From: Solibacillus sp. FSL R7-0682
GTDB lineage: Bacteria > Bacillota > Bacilli > Bacillales_A > Planococcaceae
Length of the DNA: 64,000 nucleotides
Assembly (NCBI RefSeq): GCF_038005985.1
Contig: NZ_JBBOUI010000001.1
Coordinates: forward strand, 2,128,001-2,192,000
Direction: 5' to 3'
Part shown: in pieces, positions 3,639 to 18,329 of the stretch
How positions within the stretch are numbered: the first letter of the stretch is position 1
Layout: the number at the start of each line of letters is the position of its first letter
Program-made: the position numbers and the translations under genes
Notes under the pieces: model-generated
Seen by the model: the letters and a program-made list of their open reading frames with translations, nothing else
Told to the model about the DNA's origin: nothing
The model's database searches: none

Positions 3639-3705
3639 AATTATTGCAAAATTCACCTATTCATGTTACGATGAATAACAATTAAATAGTCTTATCACGA
3701 GAAAC
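3639..3705 (+). repeat. attL, 67-bp direct repeat
   Basis: Identical over 67 bp to 18263-18329; flanking bases differ at both ends (attL is followed by GCATAC, attR by TGAGGG). It contains a metA-type promoter and the first 16 nt of the SAM riboswitch. The crossover lies somewhere within the repeat and cannot be narrowed because both copies are perfect. Confidence 0.93.
3644..3672 (+). promoter_or_regulatory. Orphan copy of the metA promoter in attL
   Basis: TTGCAA (3644-3649), 17-bp spacer, TACGAT (3667-3672). Identical to the promoter upstream of metA at 18268-18296. Here it points into the element, 170 bp before the integrase, and the transcript would start with the riboswitch's P1 5' strand without the aptamer. 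Confidence 0.6.
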
Positions 3706-3771
3706 GCATACAAGTATTTTACAAACGTAGATATACCAACGGTTTGAGACACTTGATAAGATTATAACTAG

Positions 3772-3800
3772 TTTACAGATTATATATTATTAATAGTACA
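3772..3800 (+). promoter_or_regulatory. Candidate integrase promoter
   Basis: TTTACA (3772-3777), 17-bp spacer, TACACT (3795-3800), 45 bp before the integrase start. This element-borne promoter would act in the excised form as well. Prediction from spacing only. Confidence 0.4.
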
Positions 3801-3844
3801 CTTCTTGTTATCTATGAATTTAGATGATGAGAGGTGTATTTTTT

Positions 3845-4756
3845 ATGCTCTTAAAGTTTGCATTTGATGATTTCATAGCAGATAGGAAATTTAACAACAC
3901 GACTCAAGCAAATATTAATAGTTACAAGTACATGGTTAAACCGTTTATTGATTATTGCATTAATGAAGGTGTAATTAATGTTGAGGAAGTAACGCACAAC
4001 CACTTTAAAAACTATCTGATGATATGTCAACAACAGAATAAGAAACCCAATACAATTAACACAATTATTCTACGTACTAAAGCCTTTTTTAATTATCTAT
4101 TAGAAGAAGGAATCGTAAAGGAAAACGTTACTAGGAAACTTAAGATGCAGAAAGTAGACGTTAAGATAGATACGTTTACAGACAATCAGATTAATCAAAT
4201 GTTGGCTTTCTATCGTGGTCAAAAGAAGAAACATCAATCCTATAGTAGTTACCGTAATTACTTAATCATCTTAGTGTTACTAGGGACAGGTATTCGTAGG
4301 AAAGAGTTAATTATGTTGAAGTGGGACGATGTAGACTTTAATAATCAGACACTTAACGTGTACGGTAAGAATCGTAAATATGAGACGGTATTTTTAACGG
4401 ACAAGTTAACAAAAGAATTATTAGCATTTAAGGCTTTCTCAAATAATGCCTTTAAAGATGAAACTAATCATGTATTTGTCACTCATAAGAATATACCGTT
4501 CACAATCAATACGATTGACTACGTATTTAGAGAATTAAAAATGAAGATGAATTTTAAGAACATTCGAGTATCACCCCACACTTTTAGACATTCCTATTGT
4601 CACCGTTTAGTCATGAGTGGTACTTCTGCATTCGCTATACAGAAACTAATGCGACATGAAAACATTACTACAACTATGCGTTATGTGAATTTGTGGGGTA
4701 GCGAGTTAAAACAGGAAAATGACAAACATAATCCATTAAATAGTTTTGATTTTTAA
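3845..4756 (+). CDS. Site-specific tyrosine recombinase (integrase)
   Basis: 303 residues from ATG 3845, chosen because GAGAGGTG lies 8 nt upstream; the in-frame ATG at 3824 has no such site. An N-terminal SAM-like core-binding domain (about 5-95) precedes the catalytic domain (about 110-300). The catalytic set is visible: Arg151 in GTGIRRKEL, Lys near 175, His245 and Arg248 in HTFRHS, His271 in MRHENI, Tyr280 in TTTMRYVNL. There is no arm-binding N-terminal domain of the lambda type, so it is close to simple XerC/D-like or Tn916-unlike phage integrases. It lies next to the left repeat, as expected for the enzyme that inserts and excises the element at the metA leader. Whether it needs an excisionase is unknown; none is evident. 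Confidence 0.9.
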   Translation: MLLKFAFDDFIADRKFNNTTQANINSYKYMVKPFIDYCINEGVINVEEVTHNHFKNYLMICQQQNKKPNTINTIILRTKAFFNYLLEEGIVKENVTRKLKMQKVDVKIDTFTDNQINQMLAFYRGQKKKHQSYSSYRNYLIILVLLGTGIRRKELIMLKWDDVDFNNQTLNVYGKNRKYETVFLTDKLTKELLAFKAFSNNAFKDETNHVFVTHKNIPFTINTIDYVFRELKMKMNFKNIRVSPHTFRHSYCHRLVMSGTSAFAIQKLMRHENITTTMRYVNLWGSELKQENDKHNPLNSFDF

Positions 4757-4766
4757 TTTAGACAAC

Positions 4767-4803
4767 AAAAAAGAGGGTTAGCACTCACAATGCTTTCCCT
4801 CAA
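4767..4803 (-). terminator. Intrinsic terminator read on the minus strand
   Basis: GAGGG (4773-4777) pairs with CCCTC (4797-4801) with an inner AGCA/TGCT stem. On the minus strand the hairpin is followed by TTTTTT; on + the T-run is weak. It may serve int loosely, or stop a minus-strand antisense RNA from the gene-poor segment. Confidence 0.4.
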
Positions 4804-4961
4804 TACTCTTTAGTGTCAACCATTACAACTAAATAGAGTCATTATATGCCTTTTATTCTACTTGAAAAAAATTAGAATGTCAAAGGTCTAGTTTCCTATT
4901 GTCTTTTTTAGATGACTCGTTGGTGGAAACCTAGTAACACCAATTAAAAATAAACTTGACA

Positions 4962-4971
4962 GGTTATAACC
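4962..4971. promoter_or_regulatory. Palindrome GGTTATAACC beside a TTGACA box
   Basis: A perfect 10-bp palindrome begins 1 bp after TTGACA (4956-4961). It looks like an operator over a promoter at the head of the structured region, but I see no good -10 at 16-18 bp. Confidence 0.25.
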
Positions 4972-4989
4972 TTCCCATTGCAAACAAAG

Positions 4990-5356: not shown

Positions 5357-5536
5357 ATGAGTAAACTACTACAATTAATAGAAGTTAGAAAGATTGTAAC
5401 TATATTATTTGCTATTGTATTTGCCTACATGTCTATTACAGGAATGTTAGACGTACAAAATGTAATTGTAATACTTACTATGGTATTTGCGTATTACTTT
5501 AATAAAGGTGATAATACGGAGCAAAATAAGAAATAG
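5357..5536 (+). CDS. Small phage-type membrane protein
   Basis: 59 residues; ATG 5357 preceded by GGAGAG (9 nt). The N-terminal part is amphipathic with VRKIVT, followed by two membrane segments (about 13-28 and 34-50) and a short polar tail NKGDNTEQNKK. Proteins of this size and pattern (LLxLIxVRKIVTLLxTIVF) are common in Firmicute phages near structural or lysis genes, where they are annotated as holin-like or hypothetical. Function here is not known; it could be a remnant lysis aid or a regulator of helper-phage lysis. It stands alone between two non-coding stretches. Confidence 0.65.
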   Translation: MSKLLQLIEVRKIVTILFAIVFAYMSITGMLDVQNVIVILTMVFAYYFNKGDNTEQNKK

Positions 5537-5548
5537 ACAGTATTATTT

Positions 5549-5619
5549 AAAAAATAAGACGGTTCTAAAAGTTATTTTGACCAGTCATACCAAGTGTTCG
5601 CGAGATTCTCTTATTTTTT
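5549..5619 (+). terminator. Long-stem hairpin with U-tract (terminator or riboregulator)
   Basis: AAAAAATAAGA (5549-5559) pairs perfectly over 11 bp with TCTTATTTTTT (5609-5619). The 49-nt loop region folds further (GGT..ACC around AAAA/TTTT; TCGCGA). It lies 13 bp after the small membrane protein and would end its transcript. The long structured head is more than a simple terminator needs. Confidence 0.5.
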
Positions 5620-5721
5620 GATATTTAAAATGTAAATTAAGTTCAATTGATTCTGTAAAGTAACTAATCAAATAACGTTAATTATTATCAAGGGAAATGG
5701 ATAGCGTCTAAAGGAGACAGT

Positions 5722-5823
5722 ATGAAGGGTCATAGTATAGAAAGTTATAATTCACTAGAGTCTCTAGTGAAATTCTTTTGTATTTTTTCAGACTTAAAAA
5801 TAAGAAGGTGTGAAAATAAATAA
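5722..5823 (+). CDS. Possible 33-residue micro-protein
   Basis: ATG 5722 follows AAAGGAG at 7 nt, one of the repeated CAAGGG-AGAC modules. The product begins MKGHSIESYNSLESLVKFF and has three aromatic/hydrophobic clusters and a basic end. The palindrome TCACTA-N7-TAGTGA lies inside the frame, so the bases may be kept for DNA or RNA reasons rather than for protein. No family recognised; codon use is like the element's other genes. Confidence 0.3.
   Translation: MKGHSIESYNSLESLVKFFCIFSDLKIRRCENK
5752..5770. promoter_or_regulatory. Operator-like palindrome, copy 1
   Basis: TCACTA-N7-TAGTGA (spacer GAGTCTC, so nearly fully palindromic). The second copy is 96 bp on, with identical arms and spacing. 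It could equally be an RNA hairpin. Confidence 0.4.
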
Positions 5824-5847
5824 ACTACCGCTTTAGAAAGTAATAAA

Positions 5848-5866
5848 TCACTAGAGCGAGTAGTGA
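5848..5866. promoter_or_regulatory. Operator-like palindrome, copy 2
   Basis: TCACTA-N7-TAGTGA with spacer GAGCGAG. The flanks AGAAAGTWATAAWTCACTAGAG are also shared with copy 1, so the unit is a duplicated block of about 35 bp. Confidence 0.4.
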
Positions 5867-6474: not shown

Positions 6475-6801
6475 ATGACACAATTTACTCAACATGGTTA
6501 CGACAAGGTACGTGATTATATTAAAAATACATTTAAGCACATTAGTATTGTAAATGATGCTACAGAAGTAACTAGAGTTTTAACAAATGATATTACAGTT
6601 GTAGGAAATGAGATTCAATACAAAGTAGTACTAGAAAATACAGGTGGTACTTTTACAGGTACTACGATTAATGGTGCTAATCTACATGAAGATATGTCTG
6701 ATGCTACTCCTATTGCTACAGTAACATTTAGTAATTTTACATTTGAAGCAGTACAAGACACAATTACTATCACAATTAAAGTGCAAGTACCAATGAATTA
6801 A
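6475..6801 (+). CDS. Putative virion structural protein (small, beta-rich)
   Basis: 108 residues, ATG 6475 with AAGGAGTG 5 nt upstream. The start TQHGYDKVRDYIKNTF resembles the N-terminal 'GYNKIRDYI' element of small phage tail-fibre or head-decoration proteins; the rest is beta-strand-like (VTFSNFTFEA, ITITIKVQV). First of five contiguous structural genes ending with the capsid protein, so a decoration or fibre-base role is likely. I do not recognise a named family. Confidence 0.55.
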   Translation: MTQFTQHGYDKVRDYIKNTFKHISIVNDATEVTRVLTNDITVVGNEIQYKVVLENTGGTFTGTTINGANLHEDMSDATPIATVTFSNFTFEAVQDTITITIKVQVPMN

Positions 6802-6813: not shown

Positions 6814-8121
6814 ATGCTAGGTAACGGTACTCAATCCAATCCTTTTATAATTCAAACCGTTGATGATTTTGAGCGTTTAAGGGTGAATCGTACTGCTTAC
6901 TTTGAATTAGGTAACGATTTAGACTTTAATAATGCAAACATGTTGCCATTATCCTCTCCTACTGTTGGAGAACGTGGTGAATGGAAGTTTGATGGTAAAG
7001 GGTACACAATTAAGAATATTAATTTACAACAAGGTGCGTCAAATACAAGTATAGGTTTGTTTGGTTACTTATACATAGGTTCTAGTATTTCAAATTTAAA
7101 CATAGAAAATATCAATTTATATGTACAAGGTATTACCATCGTAAGTGGTGGATTATTTGCGGGTACAATTATAGGTAAAGTCGATAACGTCAAGATTACA
7201 GGTTCTATTACTGTTAATGATTGTACTATTGGTCGTATCGGTGGTTTATGTGGTCAATTAATCGCAACTCAAGAGCGCGGTAAAGTATCTAACCTAAACA
7301 CTGATATTGACATGGTATTTATTAATTCAACTAACTCTACTACACCAAATTTAGGTGGAGTATTCGCTCAATTAAATACAGATGCCAACAACACTAATGA
7401 CTTCATCCACGACATTGTATCTGTTAACTCTTATGAGAATAGAAATTCATTCAATTATATAGTAGGTACTATTTACGGTGCTACTACTAACAACAGTTAT
7501 ACATTCAAAAATGTATATGGTAATACATCTAAGTTTCCTAACCAATTCCAGAACAATGTTTCATTTGTAAATGATACTACTATTTTAAATCCCCTCACAT
7601 TAGATACTAACTATTGGACTCAATCCCCAAATAGTGTACCTCAACTTAAAGCATTTACACCTAAAGATTACAAAGAAGTATCTGTAGAAGTAGATGTAGC
7701 ATTTAAGCCTGTTATCGTTGCCTATAATGGCTTTAAGAATAAAACAGGTGTATTTAATCCTGTTGAGTTTAGAAACGTTTCTACGCTATCAGAAAAGGCT
7801 TATAACACTATACGTGATATTGAAGTTATTCCGTTCAACTTAGATGTAACAGTTTCAAAAGTGAATAACGTAAATGCAGAAGGTACTGTTATATTGGGTG
7901 ACATCCTAATAGATAAGCAAACAGAAAAAGACGTTTTAAGATTAATAGGATTAGATTTAAAGCGTTTAAATGTATCAGTGGAAGTATTATACCCTCAAAT
8001 TGAAAATGCGGTTATACACGCTTATGTGTACTCACAAGAGCATTGTACTAATTTAACAACTAAGACGTGTACAACAAGCATTACTACGCTTCAAAATAGA
8101 ACAACGTTAGGAGTTGAGTAA
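6814..8121 (+). CDS. Beta-helix (GLUG-like repeat) fibre or decoration protein
   Basis: 435 residues; ATG 6814 after AGGGGG. It opens with GTQSNPFIIQTVDDF, a common start of secreted and phage beta-helix proteins, then repeats of the GLUG type: GLFGYLYIGSSISNLNIENI, GGLFAGTIIGKVDNVKITG, GGLCGQL..GKVSNLN (about residues 85-180). The C-terminal third (about 280-435) is a different, beta-rich domain ending with three cysteines (EHCTNLTTKTCTT). Such proteins form receptor-binding spikes or head fibres. Finding one beside scaffold and capsid genes, without any tail gene, suggests a fibre fixed to the head or fed to helper tails. The next gene starts right after its stop, implying coupled translation. 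Confidence 0.65.
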   Translation: MLGNGTQSNPFIIQTVDDFERLRVNRTAYFELGNDLDFNNANMLPLSSPTVGERGEWKFDGKGYTIKNINLQQGASNTSIGLFGYLYIGSSISNLNIENINLYVQGITIVSGGLFAGTIIGKVDNVKITGSITVNDCTIGRIGGLCGQLIATQERGKVSNLNTDIDMVFINSTNSTTPNLGGVFAQLNTDANNTNDFIHDIVSVNSYENRNSFNYIVGTIYGATTNNSYTFKNVYGNTSKFPNQFQNNVSFVNDTTILNPLTLDTNYWTQSPNSVPQLKAFTPKDYKEVSVEVDVAFKPVIVAYNGFKNKTGVFNPVEFRNVSTLSEKAYNTIRDIEVIPFNLDVTVSKVNNVNAEGTVILGDILIDKQTEKDVLRLIGLDLKRLNVSVEVLYPQIENAVIHAYVYSQEHCTNLTTKTCTTSITTLQNRTTLGVE

Positions 8122-8382
8122 ATGTTTAGTGAAGATACTATTCGATTGGTCGTAGAGTTTCGTAACTTTAATGGTCAATCTGTCCAACCTAATGACGTTA
8201 AACTTAAGGTCTATGATACAGAACAAGTATTAATAGAGACTATTATTGATATACAAACTGATAATGGTCGGTATTATTACGATTACATCGCACCACAACA
8301 TGATTTTATATTCGAATTTAGCGGTGTAGTAGATAATAAACCAATTTTAGCAAGACAATTACAAAAGGTTAAATTTATTTAA
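8122..8382 (+). CDS. Small Ig-like phage structural protein
   Basis: 86 residues; the ATG abuts the previous TAA. The pattern RLVVEFRNFNGQSVQPNDVKLKVYD ... NGRYYYDYIAPQHDFIFEFSG matches the small macroglobulin/Ig-like beta-sandwich proteins encoded beside head genes in many phages. Probable capsid-surface or connector component. No catalytic features. Confidence is in the fold type rather than the exact role. Confidence 0.6.
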   Translation: MFSEDTIRLVVEFRNFNGQSVQPNDVKLKVYDTEQVLIETIIDIQTDNGRYYYDYIAPQHDFIFEFSGVVDNKPILARQLQKVKFI

Positions 8383-8403: not shown

Positions 8404-8826
8404 ATGGAAGAAACAAAAGTAGAATCAACAGTAGAAACAGTTATTGAGGATGTAGTATCTGATGAGGAAACAACAGAAGTAACTGACATTACTGACGATA
8501 CAACTAAGAAAATGGAAGAATTAGAAAAACAAGTTGCGGAACAAAATGTATTAATGGAAGAATTACAAAAGAAGGCAAAAGAAGCAGAAGAAACATCATT
8601 TAAGATGTTATTACAATCTGAAAATCTTACTGCTTTTGAAAAGTTGTTTACTGCTAAAGACAAACAGGAACAATTAGCAATTTTAAAACAAGGTATCAAT
8701 GAAGTATTAGTAGCACATTCATATGTTCCTACTGATAAAGCCCAACAAGATGCTTACTCAAAAGCAATCGAAACAGGTGACGTTAATACCGCTATTCGTA
8801 ACAAACTATCTAAATTATTTAAGTAA
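8404..8826 (+). CDS. Capsid scaffold-like protein
   Basis: 140 residues; strongly acidic start (about 1-40), a coiled coil (KKMEELEKQVAEQNVLMEELQKKAKEAEE, about 38-66) and a basic C-terminal end IRNKLSKLFK. Acidic coiled-coil proteins directly before the major capsid gene are typically internal scaffolds whose basic tail docks the shell. A terminator-like hairpin lies between it and the capsid gene. No protease gene is seen. The call rests on composition and position. Confidence 0.6.
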   Translation: MEETKVESTVETVIEDVVSDEETTEVTDITDDTTKKMEELEKQVAEQNVLMEELQKKAKEAEETSFKMLLQSENLTAFEKLFTAKDKQEQLAILKQGINEVLVAHSYVPTDKAQQDAYSKAIETGDVNTAIRNKLSKLFK

Positions 8827-8902: not shown

Positions 8903-9778
8903 ATGACACAAATTCAATCAACTACTTACTTCACTCCAGCGGAACAAGTTTCATTATCTCAAGAATTAGCAATTTTAGGTGTGCAATCTACTCCGTTAAC
9001 ATCTCTATTACTTTCTAAAGGTAATGTGGAAAAAGCAATGGCAGTAGTACATTCATGGAGAGAACAAACTTTAGATACTACAGATGATATTTCATTTACA
9101 GAAGGTTCTGAAACTACTGTATTCCAAGCGTCTGTACGTCGTGAATTAAACAACATGTTACAAATCTTTAAGAAAGCAGTTTCTATTTCTGGTACTGCTC
9201 AAGCAATGAAAATTGATGAATTCCCATCTGAAATTAAAAATCGTCTATTAGAATTAAAAATCAACTTAGAGAAAACTCTTATCAACGGTTTAAAAGACGA
9301 TGCATCTACTTCTGGTGTACGTAAAATGTCTGGTTTAATAGAATTCGCTGACGCTAACAATGCGGTAACAGGTCGTGTAAATGATGCGGGTCAATTACTA
9401 GTTTCTACGTTAGAAAAATTATGGAATAACAACTTAATTGATGGTGAGCAATATGTAATGGTTAATGCTCAAGCAAAACAAGCAATTGATGCTCAATTTG
9501 AATCTCAATACCGTTACATTGACAAAACTACTACTTTTGGTTTAGTTGTACGTGCTATCGAAACTAACTTCGGAATTGTTAACGTAGTATTATCTAAACA
9601 TGTACCAGTAGATAAAGCAGTAGTATTTAACATCGAATATTTAGACTTAGTTGCTTTACGTGAAGCAACATTCGAACCACTTGCTAAAACAGGTGACTCT
9701 ACTAAGGGTCAAGTTGTTGGTGAGTACTCTTTAAAAGTTGGTTCTCCAAAAGCAGTAGGCGTAATTACTTTCGCATAA
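8903..9778 (+). CDS. Major capsid protein (SU10/DUF5309-type, HK97-like fold)
   Basis: 291 residues; ATG 8903 after AAGGTGG. The segment with STPLTSLLLSKG, SWREQTLD, EGSET, RRELNNMLQIFKKAVSISGT and SGLIEFADANN follows the order seen in the SU10-type major capsid family (conserved 'WREE-LD', 'ARRELTN-IFKKAVSVSGT'). The C-terminal part has the usual receptor-like strand 'VPVDKAVVFNIEYLDLVALR' and a final YSLKVGSPKAVGVITFA. Its length is normal for the family, with no sign of truncation. Together with TerL and portal it means the element can form its own shell. It is the last gene before a terminator. Confidence 0.82.
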   Translation: MTQIQSTTYFTPAEQVSLSQELAILGVQSTPLTSLLLSKGNVEKAMAVVHSWREQTLDTTDDISFTEGSETTVFQASVRRELNNMLQIFKKAVSISGTAQAMKIDEFPSEIKNRLLELKINLEKTLINGLKDDASTSGVRKMSGLIEFADANNAVTGRVNDAGQLLVSTLEKLWNNNLIDGEQYVMVNAQAKQAIDAQFESQYRYIDKTTTFGLVVRAIETNFGIVNVVLSKHVPVDKAVVFNIEYLDLVALREATFEPLAKTGDSTKGQVVGEYSLKVGSPKAVGVITFA

Positions 9779-9837: not shown

Positions 9838-10008
9838 GTGAATAAAACAGAACTATATTTAATGAGACGTACTAAAGGAATTACTTTAAAAGAACTATCG
9901 CAACATATGAATGTGTCAATTGCTTATATATCTTACTTTGAAAAAGGTAAACGTAACTTTGACTCAAATAAATTAACTAAATATTCAAACTATATCATTA
10001 AAAAATAA
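9838..10008 (+). CDS. Minimal Cro/C1-type HTH regulator
   Basis: 56 residues from GTG 9838; an upstream stop in frame excludes a longer form. RTKGITLKELSQHMNVSIAYISYFEKGKRNFDSNKLTKY is a complete HTH_3-type domain (turn at HMNVS, recognition helix IAYISYFEKGKR) with nothing else, like phage Cro proteins. It is the only recognisable DNA-binding regulator in the element, and so the best candidate for the palindromes at 5752, 5848, 5993, 6044, 16194 and 16582. The ribosome site is weak. It has no divergent partner gene, unlike PICI master switches. Confidence 0.65.
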   Translation: MNKTELYLMRRTKGITLKELSQHMNVSIAYISYFEKGKRNFDSNKLTKYSNYIIKK

Positions 10009-10151: not shown

Positions 10152-10189
10152 AAGGATTTAGGTAATTAGATTTATGTCTAATTATTATG
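10152..10189 (+). promoter_or_regulatory. Hairpin between ribosome site and start codon
   Basis: The purine block AAGGATTTAGG (10152-10162) is followed by TAATTAGA/TCTAATTA (10163-10184) and then TTATG. If folded, the hairpin removes 22 nt and sets the AGG about 4 nt from ATG. The linear spacing is otherwise too long. Confidence 0.4.
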
Positions 10190-11002
10190 ATTAAACAATT
10201 AAAAGATAAATTCCCATCATGGACTAAAGAAAAACAAGAAAGTTACTACTTAAGCGGTACAGATGATTTAGATAGTTTAGCAACTATGTCAATATTAAAT
10301 CAAGTATTCGGTTATGAACAAAACATGTATGTAACTAGAGATGGAATCTATATGCTTGATACGTCTATTAAAAACCATATTGGGGTGGATTTAGCGTGTT
10401 TAGGTGATAGATATACATATGATAACCATGTAACATTAAGAGATAATAAGAGTAAAAAGAATCCAAATAGCGCTAATATTAATAGTGTATTAGGTATTAC
10501 TTCCATTAATTATCATCAAAAATGTGCATTTTCAACGTTGTTACAGGTTATGTCATTGTATGATATTCCATTACCATCTACTGATGAGGGGAAAATGTTT
10601 TTACTATCAATTGATTCAAGTCATTACGGACATTATGACAGTAAATATCAAGGTATTCATAATAACTACATAAGACAACTAGGTTATGACGAATTGATTA
10701 ATATTATGAATAAATACACTAAAGAAGAAATATCAAGTATGCGTATGAATGAGTATTTAACGTTTAATAATGGTTATTTAACTTATGAAGAACCATACAA
10801 GTCACACGCTGAAAAGTTATTAGGATATGAATTAATTCTACCTACACAACAATTTAAACAAGTAGCCAAATTAGAAACTAATTATTCTGATTGTCCATTT
10901 CTAATTGGTGACGTTACACATGATAACATGATGTTTAGTTGTGCATTTACAGGACAATCAAAACTATCTTATACAAAATATAAACAAATCAGAGGAGAAT
11001 GA
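10187..11002 (+). CDS. Unknown protein with faint DHH-phosphoesterase-like motifs
   Basis: 271 residues. YYLSGTDDLDSLATMSIL near the start and GDRYTYDNHVTL about 75 residues later resemble DHH motif I (Asp-x-Asp with a following Ser/Leu) and the 'DHH/DNH' motif; LLSIDSSHYGHY (about residues 145) could be a further acidic motif. The resemblance is partial and I rate it as a hint only. No signal or membrane segment. The start lacks a normally placed ribosome site but has a hairpin that could bring one close. It precedes a 58-residue DUF5659-like gene by 3 bp, so the two are probably co-expressed. Possible roles: nucleotide phosphoesterase, helper-phage interference, or regulation. Confidence 0.5.
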   Translation: MIKQLKDKFPSWTKEKQESYYLSGTDDLDSLATMSILNQVFGYEQNMYVTRDGIYMLDTSIKNHIGVDLACLGDRYTYDNHVTLRDNKSKKNPNSANINSVLGITSINYHQKCAFSTLLQVMSLYDIPLPSTDEGKMFLLSIDSSHYGHYDSKYQGIHNNYIRQLGYDELINIMNKYTKEEISSMRMNEYLTFNNGYLTYEEPYKSHAEKLLGYELILPTQQFKQVAKLETNYSDCPFLIGDVTHDNMMFSCAFTGQSKLSYTKYKQIRGE

Positions 11003-11005: not shown

Positions 11006-11182
11006 ATGAAATCAGATAATAAATTTTATTACGTGTATGACGTAAACTTAAGTAAGTACATTAAAAGTAACGGTATCAGTTACATTATTAAAGCACGTTC
11101 AATCATGGATAATCGTATTTTTACTATGTATGAGCGTACAGATGAATTAATGAATTTGATTAAAACATGGGGTAACTCATGA
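11006..11182 (+). CDS. DUF5659-like small phage protein
   Basis: 58 residues; ATG 11006 after AGAGGAGAA. The form 'KFYYVYDVNLSKYIKSNGISYIIKARSIMDNRIFTMYERTDELMNLIKTW' matches the small phage family in which a Tyr-rich start is followed by 'G-F/I-x-x-I-x-x-R-x-N-x-x-x-x-x-x-x-F-x-x-T-x-E-L'. Function of the family is unknown. Overlaps nothing; its stop is the last coding base before a 348-bp intergenic region. Confidence 0.55.
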   Translation: MKSDNKFYYVYDVNLSKYIKSNGISYIIKARSIMDNRIFTMYERTDELMNLIKTWGNS

Positions 11183-11408: not shown

Positions 11409-11437
11409 TTGACATTAGAAGGAAAATAAATTATAAT
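11409..11437 (+). promoter_or_regulatory. Full-consensus sigma-A promoter
   Basis: TTGACA (11409-11414), 17-bp spacer, TATAAT (11432-11437). The expected start (about 11444) falls inside the left arm of the 13-bp inverted repeat, so the promoter is likely controlled there. It drives the 409-residue unknown and perhaps the terminase-portal block if the terminator at 12765 is read through. Confidence 0.8.
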
Positions 11438-11530: not shown

Positions 11531-12760
11531 ATGAGAGAAATAACGTTAAATGAAAAAGAACTAATCGAATTAACTGTAAAATACGGTTATAACGGTAAGG
11601 AACTAGAGAACAAGCACTTTATAGAAAAGGGTTATCTTAAGAAAAATGTAGGCTACGACTCATTCATGAAGAAAGTTAATAGTATTTGTGAGAGTGTAAC
11701 TAAGCAACGTAAAAAGAAAGGTGAATTACACCCTACTTATACATTAATTGGACTTAAGGACGTAGCCGATGAAATAAAGGATAATCGTAAATTTAATGGT
11801 ATAGATGATGCACACATTAAAATGAGTAAATATTTCTTCAATCAATTACTTAATGTAAATGAATCCAATCATACTTTTACTAAATGGGGTAGTCTTTGTA
11901 GTGGAGTACATACTTTTAATATTAATTACAATAATGTAAATGATTTATTTAGTAAGATGTATTTCGGGCAAGATACTCAATTTATTATGAATCACTTTAA
12001 ATCGTATATCAATAACCGTAACAAGTCTTACGCTAAAGTATCAATTAAACTATTAGAAAACGAAAATAAGATTAAAACTAAAGAAACTTATACATGTGAA
12101 ACGATTGATAATAAAATAATTAATTCAAATGTACATATTTATAATGATTTTAATTCTAAATTAAGGTCTATCGTAGAGAGTCATGGATACACTCTATTTA
12201 ATTACTCTTATTCTTTATCTGACAATAAACAATTAAGTAGTAGTATTGAGAAATTGAAGCAAACAATGGGTATAAATAAAATATGGAAGTCTATTTCAAT
12301 AGAAATAATTGACAATACACCATATAATATTGATTTTGATTTTAATGAATTGTATTGGTCTAAGACCATTGATAATGTAAAAGAGTTAAAAGGTAATAAA
12401 TTATTATCATTTTCTGATAAATTTAAAGTATTTAACTTCTTGAGCATGATTGATAACTTCTATTATTCTACACATAGTCTTAAATCGACTGTAAATGCTC
12501 TAAAACCGTCCATTAATGAAATACGCACTTTACTAGCAAAAAGAGAATCAAAAGGCTTTACGATGCCTATAGAGTGGAATACACTCAAATATGATTGGTT
12601 AGATGTAGAAGGAACAGTTAAATTAAATAATATCGAAGTAAAATATAGTAATGATTATGAAATTATAACTAAAGAATCAGAAAACTTTAAACCTAACTAT
12701 GAGTATGCAGATAAAAATGATGATGTAATTGTCATGGATGAATGTTTACCGTGGAGTTAA
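11531..12760 (+). CDS. Unknown 409-residue satellite protein
   Basis: ATG 11531 with AAGGAGAG 7 nt upstream and a perfect sigma-A promoter 94 bp before it. No motif, signal or membrane segment that I can name. The first 60 residues are basic and helical (KELIELTVKYGYNGKELENKHFIEKGYLKK, then KQRKKKGELHP) and could bind nucleic acid; the middle is Asn/Lys/Ser-rich, and the end is acidic (NDDVIVMDECLPWS). It has the strongest promoter in the element and sits next to repeat-rich DNA, so an initiator of element replication or a helper-response factor is a fair guess, but only a guess. Confidence 0.5.
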   Translation: MREITLNEKELIELTVKYGYNGKELENKHFIEKGYLKKNVGYDSFMKKVNSICESVTKQRKKKGELHPTYTLIGLKDVADEIKDNRKFNGIDDAHIKMSKYFFNQLLNVNESNHTFTKWGSLCSGVHTFNINYNNVNDLFSKMYFGQDTQFIMNHFKSYINNRNKSYAKVSIKLLENENKIKTKETYTCETIDNKIINSNVHIYNDFNSKLRSIVESHGYTLFNYSYSLSDNKQLSSSIEKLKQTMGINKIWKSISIEIIDNTPYNIDFDFNELYWSKTIDNVKELKGNKLLSFSDKFKVFNFLSMIDNFYYSTHSLKSTVNALKPSINEIRTLLAKRESKGFTMPIEWNTLKYDWLDVEGTVKLNNIEVKYSNDYEIITKESENFKPNYEYADKNDDVIVMDECLPWS

Positions 12761-12822: not shown

Positions 12823-13215
12823 ATGAGTATTTATGAAGCATTGAATAATGTGTCATGGAAGAAGAAGGAGTATTTTCTATGGAAACATGACTTATTTGTG
12901 TTTAAAGATAAACCTAGTGAGGAGGAATTGTGTAAAAAGATAAATTCTAAATCATTATCACATATGGTTAAATGGGAAAAGAGCGCTGAATATTTGTCGC
13001 TAGTTAACGTATACATTGAATCTCAATCTGGTAAGGATTTAGAGGATATTTATGCAATTGTGAAAGAAAAAGCATTAACAGGTGATGAAAAGTCTATTAA
13101 GTTGCTTATGGATATTCAAAAGCAGTCTAGGGAATTTAATAAAAGTGTTATTTTATCACAAAAAAACAACGAAAAAGAGCAAGAAAAAGATAAATATAGT
13201 GAGTTAGAATTGTAA
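12823..13215 (+). CDS. terS: Terminase small subunit
   Basis: 130 residues; AAGGAG upstream of ATG 12823. All-helical, with an N-terminal region fit for DNA binding (SWKKKEYFLWKHDLFVF), a central oligomerisation-type helix pair (VYIESQSGKDLEDIYAIVKEKALTGDEKSIKLLMDIQKQ, where 'ALTGDEKSIKLLMD' is a common TerS signature) and a charged tail (KNNEKEQEKDKYSELEL) of the kind that contacts TerL. Its stop overlaps the TerL start (TAATG). It would recognise the element's packaging site and so decide that the element rather than the helper genome is packed. Confidence 0.75.
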   Translation: MSIYEALNNVSWKKKEYFLWKHDLFVFKDKPSEEELCKKINSKSLSHMVKWEKSAEYLSLVNVYIESQSGKDLEDIYAIVKEKALTGDEKSIKLLMDIQKQSREFNKSVILSQKNNEKEQEKDKYSELEL

Positions 13216-14795
13216 TGAACGATAAACTACAAAAAGTTATGAATGAATTCCCTCTTTTCTCCAAAAACTTCATAAAAATAACTGATAACAACAATGATTT
13301 AATTAAATTTGAATTGAATGAAGCGCAACTAGAGATAGATGAACTGATGAAAACTAATCGTTTTGTTAATATTCTTAAAGCACGTCAGGGTGGAATATCT
13401 ACTTTTGTATTAGCAAAGGCACTATGGAGAGCAATTACAAAGGAAAATGAGAATATACTAATTGTATCGTATAAAAATGATAGTGCAATGGCGCTATTTG
13501 AGAAGTTAAAACAAATGAATGATATGTTACCTAGAGAAAATTATCCAGATGTATTCAGTGAGGTAAGACGTGATAACCGTAATGAATTATTCTTTAAAAA
13601 TGGTTCTCGTATTCGAAGTGTAGTAGCGGGACATAAAGATGTTGGACGTGGTTCTACTTATACATACATACATTTATCGGAATTTGCCTTCTATGCTAAT
13701 CAAGAAAAACAACTATTATCTGTAGAGCAGTCACTAGCAAAGGGTAATAACTCACAATTAACAATAGAATCTACTTCAAATGGTATTAGTAACCATCATT
13801 ACAGAATTAGTATGCAAGGTTTAAAAGGACAATCTAAGTATGTATCATATTTCATTCCTTTCTACCACAAGTTATATAAGAAACAATTCGCTTATGACTA
13901 TGATGAAGCGGAAAAATGGCATAAGGCAGTATTTAAAAAGCGATTAACAAAAGAAGATTGTGACGATATGGAATTGGCGCTATTAGAACAGGGTGCTAAC
14001 TTAAAACAATTAATGTGGAGACGGTTCAAGATTAGCGATATGGAAAATGAACAACAATTCCAACAAGAATATCCATCTAATGCGCTAGAATCGTTTATCA
14101 GTACAGGTAATAGTGTATTTGACCAATCTAAAGTATTAAATCGTATAAGTTATGCTAATACACCAATGGATAAGAAAGATGTTACTCCATTCATTCCAGT
14201 TGACTTGCACAAATATGTAGGTCGTGGATTGGATGTTTTTTTATTGCCTAAAAAGGGAGTTAAATACTATTTTGGAGTAGATACTGCATCTGGTGGAGGA
14301 GGAGACTTCTCTAGTATCACATGTCTCAATAAAGATGGTGAACAGATGTTTAGTTTCTATCATAATCGTGTACCAGTGTATGAATTTGCTCATATTATCT
14401 ATACGTTAGGTATTTATTATAACTATGCATTTCTTACTGTAGAGCGTAACAGTTATGGATTACCTGTAATTGAACGCTTAAGAAAAGAACGTGGTTATTT
14501 AAATATGTATAAAATGAAGCAATTCGACCAAAAAGGTAAAAAGAAATTAGAAATAGGTTATATGACCACCGAAAAGAGTAAGGCTATCATGATTAGTGAC
14601 TTTAAAGAACAATTCGAATTGAACTATGTACGTATTGACTGTAAAACAACGCTACAACAAATGCAAATGTTCATTGAAATTAACGGTAAATTAGGTAATA
14701 AAAGAGGTTCTAGTGACGTACACCATGATGACTTAGTAATTAGTACAAGTTTGGCGATACAAGGAATTAAAGCGAATAAATGGTATGTACAATAA
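13215..14795 (+). CDS. terL: Terminase large subunit (ATPase and nuclease)
   Basis: 526 residues. ATPase: Walker-A-type KARQGGIST (residues 55-63, the variant used by this phage family) and Walker B YIHLSE (Glu156). Nuclease (RNase-H-like): Asp356 in GVDTASGGGGDFSS, Glu410 in TVERNSYG and Asp505/506 in HHDDLVIS. All expected catalytic residues are present, so the motor should be functional. It translocates DNA into the prohead and cuts it. Overlaps TerS by one base and is followed by the portal gene 20 bp on, giving a complete packaging cassette. Confidence 0.9.
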   Translation: MNDKLQKVMNEFPLFSKNFIKITDNNNDLIKFELNEAQLEIDELMKTNRFVNILKARQGGISTFVLAKALWRAITKENENILIVSYKNDSAMALFEKLKQMNDMLPRENYPDVFSEVRRDNRNELFFKNGSRIRSVVAGHKDVGRGSTYTYIHLSEFAFYANQEKQLLSVEQSLAKGNNSQLTIESTSNGISNHHYRISMQGLKGQSKYVSYFIPFYHKLYKKQFAYDYDEAEKWHKAVFKKRLTKEDCDDMELALLEQGANLKQLMWRRFKISDMENEQQFQQEYPSNALESFISTGNSVFDQSKVLNRISYANTPMDKKDVTPFIPVDLHKYVGRGLDVFLLPKKGVKYYFGVDTASGGGGDFSSITCLNKDGEQMFSFYHNRVPVYEFAHIIYTLGIYYNYAFLTVERNSYGLPVIERLRKERGYLNMYKMKQFDQKGKKKLEIGYMTTEKSKAIMISDFKEQFELNYVRIDCKTTLQQMQMFIEINGKLGNKRGSSDVHHDDLVISTSLAIQGIKANKWYVQ

Positions 14796-14815
14796 AACAA
14801 TAAGGAGTGAATGAG

Positions 14816-16132
14816 ATGTCTACATTGGAAGAATATATAGCATCCAAATATAAAGGTAATAAGTTTTGGTTTAAAGATGAAATCGCTCAATTCATTAACT
14901 ATAACCGTATACATGAAACTAGAGAGTATAAAGAGTATTTAGATGGTCAACATGATATTCTTAATAATCCTAATTATATGTATAATGGTCAATTGGTTTC
15001 GCCACGTAAAATTGTGATTAATTTAGCGAAAACTATCATTAACTTTAAAACTCAATATTTACTAAAGAATCCTGTTAACCTTGTAGGTGACGTGGAGTTA
15101 GTAAAACAATTAAATATGGTAAATAAATTAGGTAAATTCGATAATAAAAATGAAAAAATTTTAAATCATATGATTAAATATGGTCAAGTATCTGAATATC
15201 TATTTATTAATAACAAGGGACGTATTGATTCTAAGATTATTGACGCTGAATCTGGTACACCAATTTATAACCGTACTAAGGAATTGATTGGTTTCATTGA
15301 ATTTAACCAATTTGATGGAAAGAATTATTACACTGTTTATAGTGAAAATGCAGTTGAGGAGTATAATGATTTATCTGGTAGTTTACAATTAGTAAAGTCT
15401 AGCCCCAATTTAAGTGGCTTACCTGTAGTTTATACAGTAGAAGATGATTTAGTATCTAATAAAGGACGTAGTGATTTAAAGGATTATATTAATATTCTTG
15501 ATAATATGGAAGATTTACTAAGTAAGTATACGGAATCTTTCTATAAGTTTATGAATCCTATTCCTGTAGCAATTGGTCAACAATTAGAAACTACTGTTCC
15601 ACAAAACGTTGTATCTGGTGGTTTTAACTTAGATGATGGTGCTGACTTTAAACTAGTAAGTAATGAAATGGATTATAAGACGTTTGAAAGTGTATATAAG
15701 ACGTTAAATCAGACTCTATTAGATGTAAGTTCAACTCCAGCCGTATCAATGAATAAAACGGATATTAGTAACTTGTCTGAAGTATCTATTAAGTTACTGT
15801 TTAGTTTAGCAGATACAAATGCGGGTGTATTAGAGAATTACATCATGGATGGATTAACTGAAAGATATGAAAAGGTTGCTAAGTTATTAGGTTATAAAGG
15901 TATTAAGATAACTGATGAGCAATTAGTAACGTTAGAGTTTAAATTTGTATACAATACTCCATCTAATCATAAAGAGATTTTAGATAATATGAAAACTCAA
16001 TATGATATGGGTGCAATTAGTACTGAAACTATTATTGACAATAGCCCATATGTAAACGATAAGTTAGTAGAATTAACAAGGTTACAAGACGTACCTGTTC
16101 CTGTAGTAGAAAATGAAACAGTATCCGTATAA
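14816..16132 (+). CDS. Portal protein (SPP1 gp6-like)
   Basis: 438 residues from ATG 14816, which stands 8 nt after AAGGAG; an in-frame GTG at 14807 overlaps that site and is less likely. Features: N-terminal 'YKEYLDGQHDILN' and 'IVINLAKTIINFKTQYLLKNPVNL' (the usual portal clip/wing start), central 'SDLKDYINILDNMEDLLSKYTESFYKFMNPIPVAIG' (about 215-255), and the stem/crown helix region to about 390. It forms the dodecameric gate through which TerL packs DNA and to which connectors bind. Confidence 0.85.
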   Translation: MSTLEEYIASKYKGNKFWFKDEIAQFINYNRIHETREYKEYLDGQHDILNNPNYMYNGQLVSPRKIVINLAKTIINFKTQYLLKNPVNLVGDVELVKQLNMVNKLGKFDNKNEKILNHMIKYGQVSEYLFINNKGRIDSKIIDAESGTPIYNRTKELIGFIEFNQFDGKNYYTVYSENAVEEYNDLSGSLQLVKSSPNLSGLPVVYTVEDDLVSNKGRSDLKDYINILDNMEDLLSKYTESFYKFMNPIPVAIGQQLETTVPQNVVSGGFNLDDGADFKLVSNEMDYKTFESVYKTLNQTLLDVSSTPAVSMNKTDISNLSEVSIKLLFSLADTNAGVLENYIMDGLTERYEKVAKLLGYKGIKITDEQLVTLEFKFVYNTPSNHKEILDNMKTQYDMGAISTETIIDNSPYVNDKLVELTRLQDVPVPVVENETVSV

Positions 16133-16304
16133 TAAAGCGTATACTTAATATTACAAATGTTAAGTAAATAAGGTAATAAAAATTAAATGGAAACGTTGAT
16201 ATAACAGGCTTGAAGGTTTAAAATAATATGTTAAAAATCTCTCGCCCGTTATACTATGAGGAGTGGGGAAATTGTCCTATATAAATAGAGAGAGGTATAA
16301 AAAA
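16133..16304 (+). other. Intergenic with operator-like site
   Basis: No gene. Contains CGTTGATATAACAG (16194-16207), the third GTTGATATA site, and an AATATGTTAAAAAT string like the 27-bp repeats at 6266 and 6432. A ribosome site GAGAGAGG precedes the next start. Confidence 0.4.
16194..16207. promoter_or_regulatory. GTTGATATA operator-like site 3
   Basis: CGTTGATATAACAG, matching the left half of site 2 exactly (CGTTGATATA) and diverging on the right. Confidence 0.35.
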
Positions 16305-16526
16305 ATGGAATTATTAGCATTATTTAATCAGATTATTCCGATAATTGTGGCAATTGTAGCCGTATGGAAAGCAACGAGTAAACTAAACAATACTCTATCT
16401 AACCTTGATAATACTACTCAACAACTTACTCAACATCTAACAGAAGTTAGACAAGATGTAGAAGATACTAATAAGATTATAGTTGACCATGAGGTACGTA
16501 TATCTGTATTGGAGAGTAAAGAATAA
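16305..16526 (+). CDS. XhlA-like membrane coiled-coil protein
   Basis: 73 residues from ATG 16305 (GAGAGAGG 6 nt before); the longer frame from 16263 has no such site. One membrane helix (about 5-24, LFNQIIPIIVAIVAVW), then a coiled coil (LNNTLSNLDNTTQQLTQHLTEVRQDVEDTNKII...HEVRISVLE). This layout is that of the XhlA/holin-associated family found in phage lysis cassettes, reversed in orientation compared with classic XhlA (where the membrane helix is C-terminal). With no endolysin nearby, a lysis role is uncertain; it could be a membrane-anchored interference protein. Confidence 0.5.
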   Translation: MELLALFNQIIPIIVAIVAVWKATSKLNNTLSNLDNTTQQLTQHLTEVRQDVEDTNKIIVDHEVRISVLESKE

Positions 16527-16597: not shown

Positions 16598-16739
16598 ATG
16601 TATATTTATTGTATACTACGTAAGTAACGTGAAAGTAAGGAATGTAGTGTTATCAATGCTTAAGAGATATATCTAGTTTACATAAGATAGGTTATAGGAA
16701 GTTGAGAGTGCATACACTATACATTGAAAGGGGATTAAT

Positions 16740-17075
16740 ATGAATAACTTACAACGTCTACAGATGGAAACTAAAGGAATAGAATTAGAACAAGGTGAGA
16801 TGATTATCTATCTACAAGAAAATGGATTAGAACCATATGACAAATATGATGTAAATTCCATTGTAAATAAACGTAGAATCTATATGACTGCGTTAAGTGT
16901 ATTAGAATCAATAGCAAACAATACATCTCTTATGAGTACGCTTAAGATAGATGATATGACTGTATCTGACTTCCATGAACAACTACTTGCTCGTATCAAT
17001 CAATTGGAAGATAAGATAAATAAAATACCAAACAGTGAAGAAGGATTTAAATCTACTTTCTTACTGTATAATTAG
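16740..17075 (+). CDS. Putative head-completion/connector protein
   Basis: 111 residues; AAAGGGG precedes ATG 16740. Predominantly helical and soluble (LQRLQMETKGIELEQGEMIIYLQENGLEP ... INKRRIYMTALSVLESIANN). The start 'LQRLxMETKGIxLxxxExxIYLxENGL' followed by Tyr resembles small proteins that follow portal and capsid genes in Firmicute phages and are assigned as head-tail adaptors. Position and the next gene agree, but no catalytic or structural motif is decisive. Confidence 0.5.
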   Translation: MNNLQRLQMETKGIELEQGEMIIYLQENGLEPYDKYDVNSIVNKRRIYMTALSVLESIANNTSLMSTLKIDDMTVSDFHEQLLARINQLEDKINKIPNSEEGFKSTFLLYN

Positions 17076-17086
17076 GAGTGGGAAGA

Positions 17087-17665
17087 TTGAACAGATTTAA
17101 TGATTTCATTTTAGATTTAAATTTTCAAAGTATAGAATCAAATTACATTTTAAATCCTAATTTACCTAATAAACGTACAATAAAAGGCTTTGTAACTAAT
17201 CACGAATTAAATCCAATTTCATCATTTCATTTCCATTCACTAGCACCATTTAAGCGCGGTGAGCATGTAGAAATAGATGGTAATGATTATTTAGTTATGA
17301 CTGATGTGATTACTAATCGAGTACAGAAACGTAAAGCAATTGTAACTTACTGTAACTTTACTCATGACAAGATTATGATTGATAAAGTATTAGTTGGATA
17401 TGATGATTTAGGACGTCCAATTTATGAAGATAAAGAAGTGGATTATGGAATTGAATATGGAGTTTTAAAATACAAAGACGTTTCTATTCCTACAAATGAA
17501 ACTATAAATCTAATTAGAACAGTATACGACTTATCTATTACAGACAATGAAGTGAATAGACGATACTTTACTTATGATAAAGTTTTAACGTTTGAAGGAA
17601 GAACATATAGAATAACTGATTTAGTATTTACAAATAAAGGTTTGATAGTAGCGCGGTTACAATAG
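17087..17665 (+). CDS. Putative head-tail joining protein
   Basis: 192 residues from TTG 17087, 8 nt after TAGGAG; an in-frame GTG at 17078 overlaps that site. Beta-rich with FKRGEHVEIDGNDYLVMTDVITNRVQKRKAIVTYCNF and GYDDLGRPIYEDKEVDYG, a pattern common in head-tail stopper proteins (a beta-barrel that receives 'GxxVxxxGxxYLVxx' signals). It follows the putative adaptor by 11 bp. If correct, the element makes the interface that accepts a helper tail. The call is from pattern and position. Confidence 0.45.
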   Translation: MNRFNDFILDLNFQSIESNYILNPNLPNKRTIKGFVTNHELNPISSFHFHSLAPFKRGEHVEIDGNDYLVMTDVITNRVQKRKAIVTYCNFTHDKIMIDKVLVGYDDLGRPIYEDKEVDYGIEYGVLKYKDVSIPTNETINLIRTVYDLSITDNEVNRRYFTYDKVLTFEGRTYRITDLVFTNKGLIVARLQ

Positions 17666-17793
17666 TCGCTTACCCCTAAACAAGAAATCGATGCCGTACC
17701 TTATCATTTTTCACACGCACATAAAAAATATTATTTCCTTATAATAAGTTTTTTGGTAATATATAGTTAGTTAATTTTATGGGGTGGTAAATA

Positions 17794-18048
17794 ATGAAAG
17801 AAGAAATTACTAATAATCCTAACAATAATCCCAATGATAATCCAGATATTGATGTATATGAAGGTTGCCTTAAAGGGTGTATGGTGATTATTGTAATTAT
17901 AATCCTGTGTATATTTTTATTAAAATCATGTTTCGAAAGTATTGACAGAGAACCTGTTAAACAAGGGGATTGGAATTTTGATGGTGAGGTAGATACAAAA
18001 GATTTAGATACATATATAAAATGGAAAAATAAACAGGATGATGAATAA
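17794..18048 (+). CDS. Membrane protein with dockerin/EF-hand-like tail
   Basis: 84 residues; GGGGTGG 7 nt before ATG 17794. An Asn/Pro-rich head (NNPNNNPNDNPDID), a membrane helix (about 28-48, MVIIVIIILCIFLLKSC) and a C-terminal segment GDWNFDGEVDTKDLDTYIKW that matches the calcium loop and helix of a single dockerin/EF-hand repeat (D-x-N-x-D-G-x-V-D-x-x-D-L). It stands apart at the right end of the element, the usual place for cargo such as defence or host-interaction genes. Not otherwise recognised. Confidence 0.6.
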   Translation: MKEEITNNPNNNPNDNPDIDVYEGCLKGCMVIIVIIILCIFLLKSCFESIDREPVKQGDWNFDGEVDTKDLDTYIKWKNKQDDE

Positions 18049-18080
18049 GGATTTTCTATTAAAAAATAGTTACATAATCT

Positions 18081-18109
18081 AACAACCTTTATATGAGGGT
18101 TGTTTTTTT
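18081..18109 (+). terminator. Terminator at right end of the element
   Basis: AACAACC (18081-18087) pairs with GGTTGTT (18098-18104), then TTTTT. It shields the metA promoter from element transcription. Confidence 0.75.
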
Positions 18110-18262
18110 GTTGCCAAACGTATTCCTTATCAATTTCACCTCATTATAATTTTTCAAAATATAATTAACATCTACTTCTCTTTTTCAGATGTATGAGTTA
18201 CAATGTAATTCACATAGGTATAATAAGAAGTGTAATATATACCGTAAACTAGCCGTAACACC

Positions 18263-18329
18263 AATTATTGCAAAATTCACCTATTCATGTTACGATGAAT
18301 AACAATTAAATAGTCTTATCACGAGAAAC
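18263..18329 (+). repeat. attR, 67-bp direct repeat
   Basis: Perfect copy of 3639-3705. Its last 16 bases are the first 16 of the metA SAM riboswitch, so the junction is at the riboswitch and its function is kept. Confidence 0.93.
18268..18296 (+). promoter_or_regulatory. metA promoter
   Basis: TTGCAA (18268-18273), 17-bp spacer, TACGAT (18291-18296); start expected near 18303, 11 nt before the riboswitch. It lies wholly in attR, and the DNA upstream of -41 now belongs to the element. Confidence 0.65.

Follow-up and report, generated by a model that had tools for sequence, protein, structure and literature searches.

PICIs, the phage-inducible islands, carry a divergent regulatory switch. 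Their capsid-forming members (cf-PICIs) are described as elements of about 14 kb that encode their own major capsid protein (MCP), portal, terminases and neck proteins and depend on a helper for tails (PMC10690885, PMC10803314). MulchRoom (OQ784832; 14.8 kb), a Streptomyces satellite of the MiniFlayer group, likewise has TerS, TerL, portal, scaffold, MCP, adaptor, stopper and integrase, and no tail gene is annotated in its record. Here we describe an integrated 14.7-kb element in the chromosome of Solibacillus sp. FSL R7-0682, located at positions 3639–18329 of the window, the whole analysed stretch of 64,000 nucleotides. By its sequence, this is a real element that encodes its own head and in which no tail gene was recognised, and it has many relatives.

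Like the cf-PICIs, the element measures about 14 kb and has its own MCP, portal and terminases (TerS by position); two conserved candidate neck proteins follow the portal. By comparison, the protease and HNH genes of cf-PICIs are absent by family search, as neither a head maturation protease nor a packaging HNH endonuclease was matched by PHROGs in 18/18 ORFs or by Pfam in 11/18. In addition, and compared with cf-PICIs as described, the element has a scaffold candidate and an SU10-type coat, and its DHH-like gene and slot gene sit between the capsid and terminase genes. It differs from PICIs in having no divergent switch. MulchRoom differs in gene order and in its terminal repeats of 1609 bp, and its group in having a virulent helper (PMC10690885); its seven head proteins gave no match to 23 family HMMs at E 10. 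Coat proteins ranking first, at identities from 32 to 27%, belong to Enterococcus phages SEsuP-1 and VEsP-1 and Propionibacterium phages B22 and Doucette, which differ in being phage records of 37–39 kb. The SPP1-type portal family (phrog_64) is common to the element and a tailed prophage that its host genome also carries; the TerL, MCP and neck proteins of the element match none of 19 tested proteins of that prophage. Among the papers listed by literature searches, and judged by titles and abstract openings, none describes Bacillales satellites with an SU10 coat.

Gene content and insertion site

The element is bounded by perfect 67-bp repeats (Table 1), as the first-pass annotation had it. 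The overlap of attR with the metA SAM riboswitch escaped that annotation. Since att carries the first 17 nt of this riboswitch, the riboswitch is whole after insertion; the metA upstream leader was matched in 16/16 genomes of the genus. By eye, attR also holds a candidate extended −10 promoter (TTGCAA-17-TACGAT, TG preceding), which is absent among the promoters listed by the scan. All 18 assigned ORFs lie on the + strand, as first described, and the minus-strand ORFs in the ORF list are short or overlap these 18. Positions 5537–6474, about 0.9 kb, contain no + strand ORF of 50 aa.

Table 1. Features of the element, in window coordinates
Feature	Position	Strand	Evidence
attL, 67 bp	3639..3705	+	perfect direct repeat of 18263-18329
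Tyrosine integrase	3824..4756	+	phrog_1 3.6e-48
59-aa protein	5357..5536	+	phrog_13256 3.2e-11 (unknown function)
c13, putative structural protein	6475..6801	+	at least 13/61 elements; phrog_7177 E 0.084
c14, putative fibre or capsid-surface protein	6814..8121	+	phrog_30905 6.9e-7 (unknown function); at least 15/61
c15	8122..8382	+	phrog_18294 6.3e-13; at least 18/61
Scaffold candidate	8404..8826	+	position before MCP; 51/61; no family match
SU10-type major capsid protein	8903..9778	+	PF17236 1.6e-73; phrog_1328 2.9e-57
56-aa HTH protein 3' of MCP	9838..10008	+	phrog_8 3.3e-7; 51/61
Candidate DHH-superfamily-like fold, 271 aa, putative phosphoesterase or nuclease	10187..11002	+
Small conserved ORF	11006..11182	+	45/61
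Perfect sigma-A-like promoter before 11531	11409..11437	+	TTGACA-17-TATAAT, 12/12
Slot occupant before TerS, 409 aa, cluster 19	11531..12760	+	replication role proposed only
TerS candidate	12823..13215	+	directly 5' of TerL; 61/61; no significant family match
Terminase large subunit (TerL)	13215..14795	+	phrog_2 2.3e-34; invariant residues over 12 relatives
Portal, SPP1-like	14807..16132	+	phrog_64 1.9e-57
87-aa protein, variable/holin slot	16263..16526	+	phrog_1009 1.7e-6 (unknown function); membrane segment by eye
Putative head-neck adaptor, 111 aa	16740..17075	+	61/61; role by position only
Putative stopper (head closure) protein	17078..17665	+	phrog_763 matches in family; predicted model
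84-aa protein	17794..18048	+	no usable match; membrane and dockerin-like segments by eye
attR, 67 bp	18263..18329	+	first 17 nt of SAM riboswitch inside; extended −10 promoter by eye
SAM riboswitch (RF00162) upstream of metA	18313..18420	+	93.5 bits vs gathering score 44.4

The integrase, SU10-type capsid, TerL and portal assigned at first pass are borne out by PHROG and Pfam matches (1.6e-73 to 2.3e-34). TerS, scaffold and the two neck proteins are named solely by position and conservation: the genes proposed for these roles are indeed conserved in position, but firm family homology was not found. No tool supported the beta-helix fibre that had been proposed for c14, whose best match has no function attached; the N-terminus is the best conserved part of this protein (9 members aligned). 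For the DHH-like family, a PDB profile search gave no match, nor did hhalign against the longest ORF of each of four host DHH loci, where single sequences are weak templates and the ORFs picked at two loci (L214, L215) are, by eye, not the DHH gene. The best-ranked phage TerL is 27.7% identical to that of the element, and all 759 matching phage records fall below 60%.

Searches of the 18 ORFs against PHROGs returned no usable tail or lysis match. The best PHROG E values were 0.059 for tail families (tube, tape measure, tip, nozzle), 0.017 for lysis families and 0.049 for polymerase families, none of them usable, and endolysin had no family match; the 87-aa product matches an Rz-like spanin PHROG at only E 0.017.

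Relatives and variable genes

Sequence scans reveal 61 distinct elements that share the gene order. They were picked for MCP, TerL and the stopper candidate, which are thus 61/61 by construction; the counts for TerS, portal and adaptor are not, yet the adaptor served to find many of the loci. As each locus was trimmed to 10-kb flanks, integrase, c12–c15 and holin counts are lower bounds. The family occurs in 15/261 genomes of the taxonomic family of the host, own genome included, and relatives are found in Lysinibacillus, Peribacillus, Lederbergia, Desulfocucumis and a Sporosarcina MAG. Among 92 IMG/VR contigs, compiled by hand with five distant loci left out (L077, L079, L081, L082, L083) and with one underlying relative list keeping 80/87 relatives, 54 measure 12–19 kb.

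Relatives occupy several insertion sites, and empty sites are present in two genomes (G158, G164). Flanking repeats of at least 23 nt were found in 9/14 relatives tested, with spans of 13.7–16.5 kb; L043, L045, L047, L050 and L052 have no repeat above 15 nt within the stretch fetched, and L049 was too short for this test. Three contigs (L030, L124, L145) have end repeats of 83, 99 and 86 bp, which identify them, at the sequence level, as circular forms, and one of the three carries plasmid-type Rep3 and ParA. Some relatives are broken, with TerL split in L036, L049, L086, L137 and L147, the portal split in L118 and only TerL pieces in L052. The family is nevertheless not one of single, degraded relatives, the outcome set beforehand as the mark of a dying prophage: the 61 elements keep the head genes, and dN/dS for MCP, TerS, TerL and portal is 0.03–0.25 (six pairs; several dS values exceed 1 and are unreliable singly), indicating that the head genes are under purifying selection in the family.

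By family search, the first-pass claim of missing lysis and replication genes stands for this element; it fails for the family, of which their absence is not a trait. Holins occur in 10/61 elements, a lower bound, and XhlA in 2/61 (12/61 together); few of the 255 variable-slot ORFs were scanned against families. One relative has a tail gene. In the slot 5' of TerS, some relatives have DnaD-like/helicase-loader, primase-like or helicase genes; others have a regulator-like family there. The first-pass statement that a divergent repressor switch is lacking holds for this element, and some relatives (L024, L026) have an opposite-strand HTH gene (cluster 50; HTH by eye). For family 17, the commonest in the slot, the best match is 'transcriptional regulator' (3.1e-36), with replication initiation reached at no better than 0.0022. 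It looks related to family 16, with a probability of 69.5 and an E of 4.2e-5 across 100 columns.

The 409-aa slot protein has no family match of its own. Kinship of its family with two larger slot families was considered and rejected, as profile comparison shows none, and its proposed replication role therefore rests on position. The promoter before this gene overlaps an inverted repeat (11430–11512). It was also considered as a conserved feature and rejected: it is not conserved in relatives, and none of 39 other elements with a recognised slot gene has a promoter of at least 11/12 directly 5' of it.

Neck proteins and the source of the tail

The 111-aa adaptor candidate gave no match at E 0.1 in the phage or plasmid records searched and one chance-level match in a PDB profile search; none of the 25 families listed for 21 of its members is a connector family. 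In the stopper family, 9/28 members match the head-tail adaptor phrog_763, with a best E of only 0.0078, and the predicted structure (pLDDT 84.9) shows a helix followed by strands. Some long neck proteins also match tail-named PHROGs: tail protein in 4 members (5.8e-9) and in 3 members (1.8e-8), major tail protein in 2 (4.5e-14) and minor tail in 3 (2.1e-8). These matches probably arise via Ig-like extensions, the PDB profile search of this family giving just Ig-like or other matches, in the extension; this could point to a host-contact vertex of the element's own. Neither neck family matched four connector-region proteins of the host prophage by hhalign.

A tailed prophage resides at about 1.523–1.563 Mb in the same genome as the element, with a tape measure (phrog_1535 4.1e-98) and a major tail protein (phrog_158 3.5e-29). 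PF10145 and PF06605 found nothing in the host genome despite this prophage, and both families therefore miss its tail genes. Between MCP and stopper, ORFs not covered by the family HMMs reach at most 566 aa, compared with 1017 aa for the tape-measure protein of the prophage. In G658, a relative outside the 61 elements (L149) has a Prophage_tail (tail-tip) gene (PF06605 3.7e-14) shortly 5' of the neck genes. Another prophage directly adjoins a relative in G657; co-residence proves no partnership.

Interpretation and alternatives

The element is likely an integrated member of a widespread capsid-encoding, satellite-like family working like cf-PICIs with helper tails, a dependence that we infer; the family probably borrows tails from ordinary phages. 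Upon induction, which a co-resident phage or an infecting one may trigger, the integrase would excise a circle, and the protein of the slot before TerS would start copying. Coat and scaffold would form a small head, which TerS and TerL would fill via the SPP1-type portal with DNA of the element itself. Both neck proteins would then seal the portal and present a surface on which a helper tail can dock; endolysin would also come from the helper, and holins or cargo from the variable slot that separates the portal gene from the neck genes. This explanation is favoured by the att repeats, the shared order of 61 elements, purifying selection, the end-repeat contigs and the empty sites, together with the shortfall of the longest non-family ORF from tape-measure size and the co-resident prophages. 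Counted against it are the lack of firm homology for TerS, scaffold and both neck proteins, the tail gene in G658, the tail-named stopper matches, the best match of slot family 17 to a regulator and the broken relatives.

It is possible, if unlikely, that the element belongs to a branch of cf-PICIs in Gram-positives that surveys have already covered and hence is not new, which would be compatible with helper dependence. The mean size of cf-PICIs is 14 kb and Bacillaceae are among their hosts (PMC10803314), and their capsids form three radiations (PMC11389934); the scaffold-type head and the lack of head protease and HNH family matches in the 18 ORFs (PHROGs) argue against this placement. Slightly less probable is a minimal virus that builds a short vertex itself, in which the neck proteins, with c13–c15 where present, make a very short tail or fibre and no helper tail is used; it could be podovirus-like, or ride on a helper as MiniFlayer does. 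Such a vertex would suit the c13–c15 genes of some elements, the Ig-like and tail-named stopper matches in some lineages and the holins and XhlA, and MiniFlayer is described as a satellite with its own short fibre (PMC10690885). It fits poorly with two elements (L040, L053) in which the stretch from integrase to stopper is covered and holds neither c14 nor c15, and with the 18 ORFs, in which no endolysin and no usable nozzle or tail family was found.

Derivation from a larger tailed prophage, of which a remnant without the tail module is left, would account for the ORF-poor stretch and the broken relatives, and is disfavoured as very improbable given 61 same-order relatives, intact att sites, purifying selection and the distance of phage TerL proteins. 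Own head and packaging genes would also suit a domesticated gene-transfer agent or another device for carrying cargo; the integrase, perfect att, patchy presence, several insertion sites and end-repeat contigs make this the most improbable of the readings.

Returning to the favoured helper-dependent satellite, the chances are about even that these elements form a class of head-making satellites in its own right, separate from PICIs and hosted by Bacilli and other Bacillota-type bacteria, with a private neck protein, a core DHH-like protein, exchangeable slot genes, and existence both as chromosomal islands and as Rep3/ParA plasmid-like circles. Relatives in named genera (Lysinibacillus, Peribacillus, Lederbergia, Desulfocucumis and a Sporosarcina MAG) make the idea testable, and the metA-leader att exemplifies insertion into a riboswitch leader with the riboswitch left whole. 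If the reading is right, tail theft would have arisen in a lineage with coat, packaging and neck proteins distant from those of phage records. It would then offer a second system, beside cf-PICIs, for how heads recognise foreign tails and for the resulting host range, and for asking how satellites move between a chromosomal and a plasmid state.

Element layout and distribution of the family

The element is bounded by two identical 67-bp copies, confirming the perfect att repeat claimed in the first-pass annotation, and encodes 18 assigned ORFs of 56 to 526 aa, all on the plus strand, which cover ~78% of the element as summed over the ORF list. The host genome comprises 4.06 Mb in 8 contigs. 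Within the gene inventory previously claimed, the identities of the integrase, SU10-type major capsid protein (MCP), TerL and portal are firm by sequence homology, while TerS, the scaffold and the two putative connector proteins behind the portal (adaptor and stopper, together the neck) bear candidate names assigned by position.

Features of the element and its surroundings (window coordinates)
Feature	Position	Remark
Element	3639-18329
Scaffold candidate	8404-8826
HTH gene	9838-10008
DHH-like gene	10187-11002
Small ORF	11006-11182
Promoter	within 11409-11512	sole 12-of-12 promoter in element; overlaps 39-nt imperfect inverted repeat before slot gene
Adaptor candidate	16740-17075	111 aa
Stopper candidate	17078-17665	195 aa
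SAM riboswitch	18313-18420	only above-threshold Rfam match within window
Serine resolvase-like ORF	25784-26404	outside element; by eye
Tyrosine recombinase-like ORF	58892-59845	outside element; by eye

Among the 261 genomes of the GTDB family, 15 have TerL relatives (7 of 19 genera), as do 6 of 398 genomes sampled across the phylum, own genome included in both counts. The nine named genome contigs with TerL relatives belong to Lysinibacillus (three), Lederbergia, Peribacillus, Desulfocucumis and three MAGs named Sporosarcina, Bacilli and Bacteroidales; the Bacteroidales MAG may be misbinned. Scanning IMG/VR with TerL and the 111-aa protein, with distinct contigs compiled by hand, yielded 92 contigs; 54 measure 12-19 kb (median 15.8 kb), 32 are shorter and 6 longer. 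After TerL duplicates at 98% nucleotide identity were dropped, 61 elements reach from MCP to the stopper candidate. All 61 contain TerS, portal and the adaptor candidate, while scaffold and HTH gene each occur in 51, the DHH-like gene in 48 and the small ORF in 45. A slot protein, encoded before TerS and belonging to one of four families, is present in 40 elements and an integrase in 34; a holin occurs in 10 and XhlA in 2 others. These counts are lower bounds wherever loci end early.

The first-pass annotation had also considered a dying prophage, with only single, degraded relatives. Instead, the 61 elements all retain TerS, portal and adaptor candidate, and some relatives are broken: TerL is split in L036, L049, L086, L137 and L147 and present as pieces only in L052, and the portal is split in L118. 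Over six pairs, dN/dS is 0.03-0.25 for MCP, TerS, TerL and portal, 0.06-0.30 for the adaptor, 0.11-0.45 for the stopper and 0.20-0.55 for the scaffold. Flanking direct repeats of 23-848 nt, differing in sequence, were found in 9 of 14 relatives tested (spans 13.7-16.5 kb), one resembling a tRNA end by eye. The 848-nt exact repeat of L044 (genome G052, C1 1,991,200-2,011,100), with a second integrase fragment ~13.8 kb apart, suggests a tandem arrangement. Loci L028 and L029 are two elements that share an IMG genome id and whose TerL genes have a DNA identity of at least 98%; in L028 the DHH-like gene is split by two minus-strand ORFs, IS-like by eye.

Integration at the metA leader and extrachromosomal forms

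Because the right att copy ends at 18329, att includes the first 17 nt of the SAM riboswitch, and by eye it contains an extended -10 promoter; metA keeps the whole riboswitch after insertion. The metA leader was matched in 16/16 genomes of the genus, and the site was surveyed in six others than the host. The upstream gene lies 345 and 261 bp from metA in G158 and G164, where the site looks empty, and ~2.4 and ~2.3 kb from it in G161 and G162, while G157 carries a truncated integrase flanked by two att-like copies. In G151 (C1 ~2,148,400-2,177,700; L197, L198), ~29 kb with a similar integrase occupies the leader, and no head genes were recognised in it, both by eye; its second att-like copy is weak (77% over 66 nt) and was missed by the short search. 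The metA leader is an integration hotspot.

Exact end repeats were found in L030 (83 bp), L124 (99 bp) and L145 (86 bp), and L017, L116, L106 and L120 are among the contigs permuted relative to the att-defined gene order. At 11813-14216, L145 (an IMG/VR contig of 16,355 bp) encodes a Rep3 initiator and a ParA-type ATPase (Rep3_N 2.8e-29, Rep3_C 4.5e-18, AAA_31 1.4e-35). No integrase was found in L145 or L124. The Rep3 and ParA genes, without a found integrase, mark L145 as a plasmid-like form of the family, judged by gene content.

Tail, lysis, replication and neck genes

The claimed absence of tail, lysis and replication genes holds by family search for the element, whose 18 ORFs give best PHROG matches of E 0.059 (tail), 0.017 (lysis) and 0.049 (polymerase). 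Absence of lysis and replication genes is not a trait of the family, as some relatives carry holins or replication-like slot genes. The holins, of PF05105 type (6.7e-35 for L019), lie between portal and neck. Slot family 16 is DnaD-like (phrog_186, 1.7e-7), family 28 is primase-like (phrog_47, 1e-6; PF01807, 7e-4, below its cut-off), and L027 carries a DEAD helicase (PF00270, 1.1e-14). Arguing against a replication role for the slot, the commonest family, 17, best matches a 'transcriptional regulator' (phrog_19047, 3.1e-36) and reaches no better than 0.0022 for replication initiation. Family 19, which holds the window's 409-aa protein, has no family match; we infer that this protein may start replication. 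Slot families differ even between sister elements, as in the window and L017, whose TerL proteins are 82% identical.

Between MCP and stopper, ORFs not covered by the family HMMs reach at most 566 aa across the 61 elements. Beyond that span lie ORFs of 804 aa (L120) and of 784 and 902 aa, the latter two upstream of the scaffold gene in a relative on a 24-kb contig (L033/L034). A contig of G658 opens with a 1279-aa frame (L172:1-3840) that matches Prophage_tail (PF06605, 3.7e-14) and YOMG_N. Next come genes for a 230-aa protein and membrane proteins, then both neck genes and an integrase; a near-copy of the 230-aa protein is located after the portal. This order and the near-copy indicate either cargo of the variable slot between portal and neck or a tandem pair of elements.

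Searching 50,697 phage and 72,556 plasmid records with the 111-aa protein gave no match at E 0.1, and no connector family is among the 25 families listed as matches for 21 members of its family. Of 28 members of the 195-aa family, 9 match phrog_763, 'head-tail adaptor' (best E 0.0078), and 13 match phrog_5251, of unknown function. Tail-named families are matched by 2-4 members each (up to 4.5e-14), probably via Ig-like repeats in longer members. In the predicted model of the 195-aa protein (pLDDT 84.9), the N-terminus forms a helix and strands come after it.

Helper candidates and relation to known satellites

A tailed prophage in the host genome encodes proteins that match phrog_64 (portal, 2e-131), phrog_158 (major tail, 3.5e-29) and phrog_1535 (tape measure, 4.1e-98). 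When 19 of its proteins were compared with the families of the element and its relatives, matches were obtained for the portal (21.5%, E 2e-6) and the holin. In G657, a relative lies directly behind another prophage, in which terminase, portal, MCP and endolysin families were identified; the six proteins scanned show no tail family among their matches. Both prophages are helper candidates, although neither co-residence shows partnership, and we infer the helper step.

As described in PMC10690885, cf-PICIs encode MCP, head maturation protease, portal, connectors, TerS, TerL and HNH, and need helpers for tails only. Their mean size is given as 14 kb, with Bacillaceae among the carriers (PMC10803314), and three capsid radiations are described (PMC11389934). 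Compared by these descriptions, the element resembles cf-PICIs in inventory but lacks their protease and HNH, and is therefore not classed as one. MulchRoom follows the same logic, with no kinship detected. Identity to the element MCP is 32% for the top-ranked coat proteins of phages, and the top-ranked TerL identities are 27.7% (phage) and 26.7% (plasmid). The element is real and widespread, and it probably represents a capsid-encoding satellite lineage without description in the literature searched.
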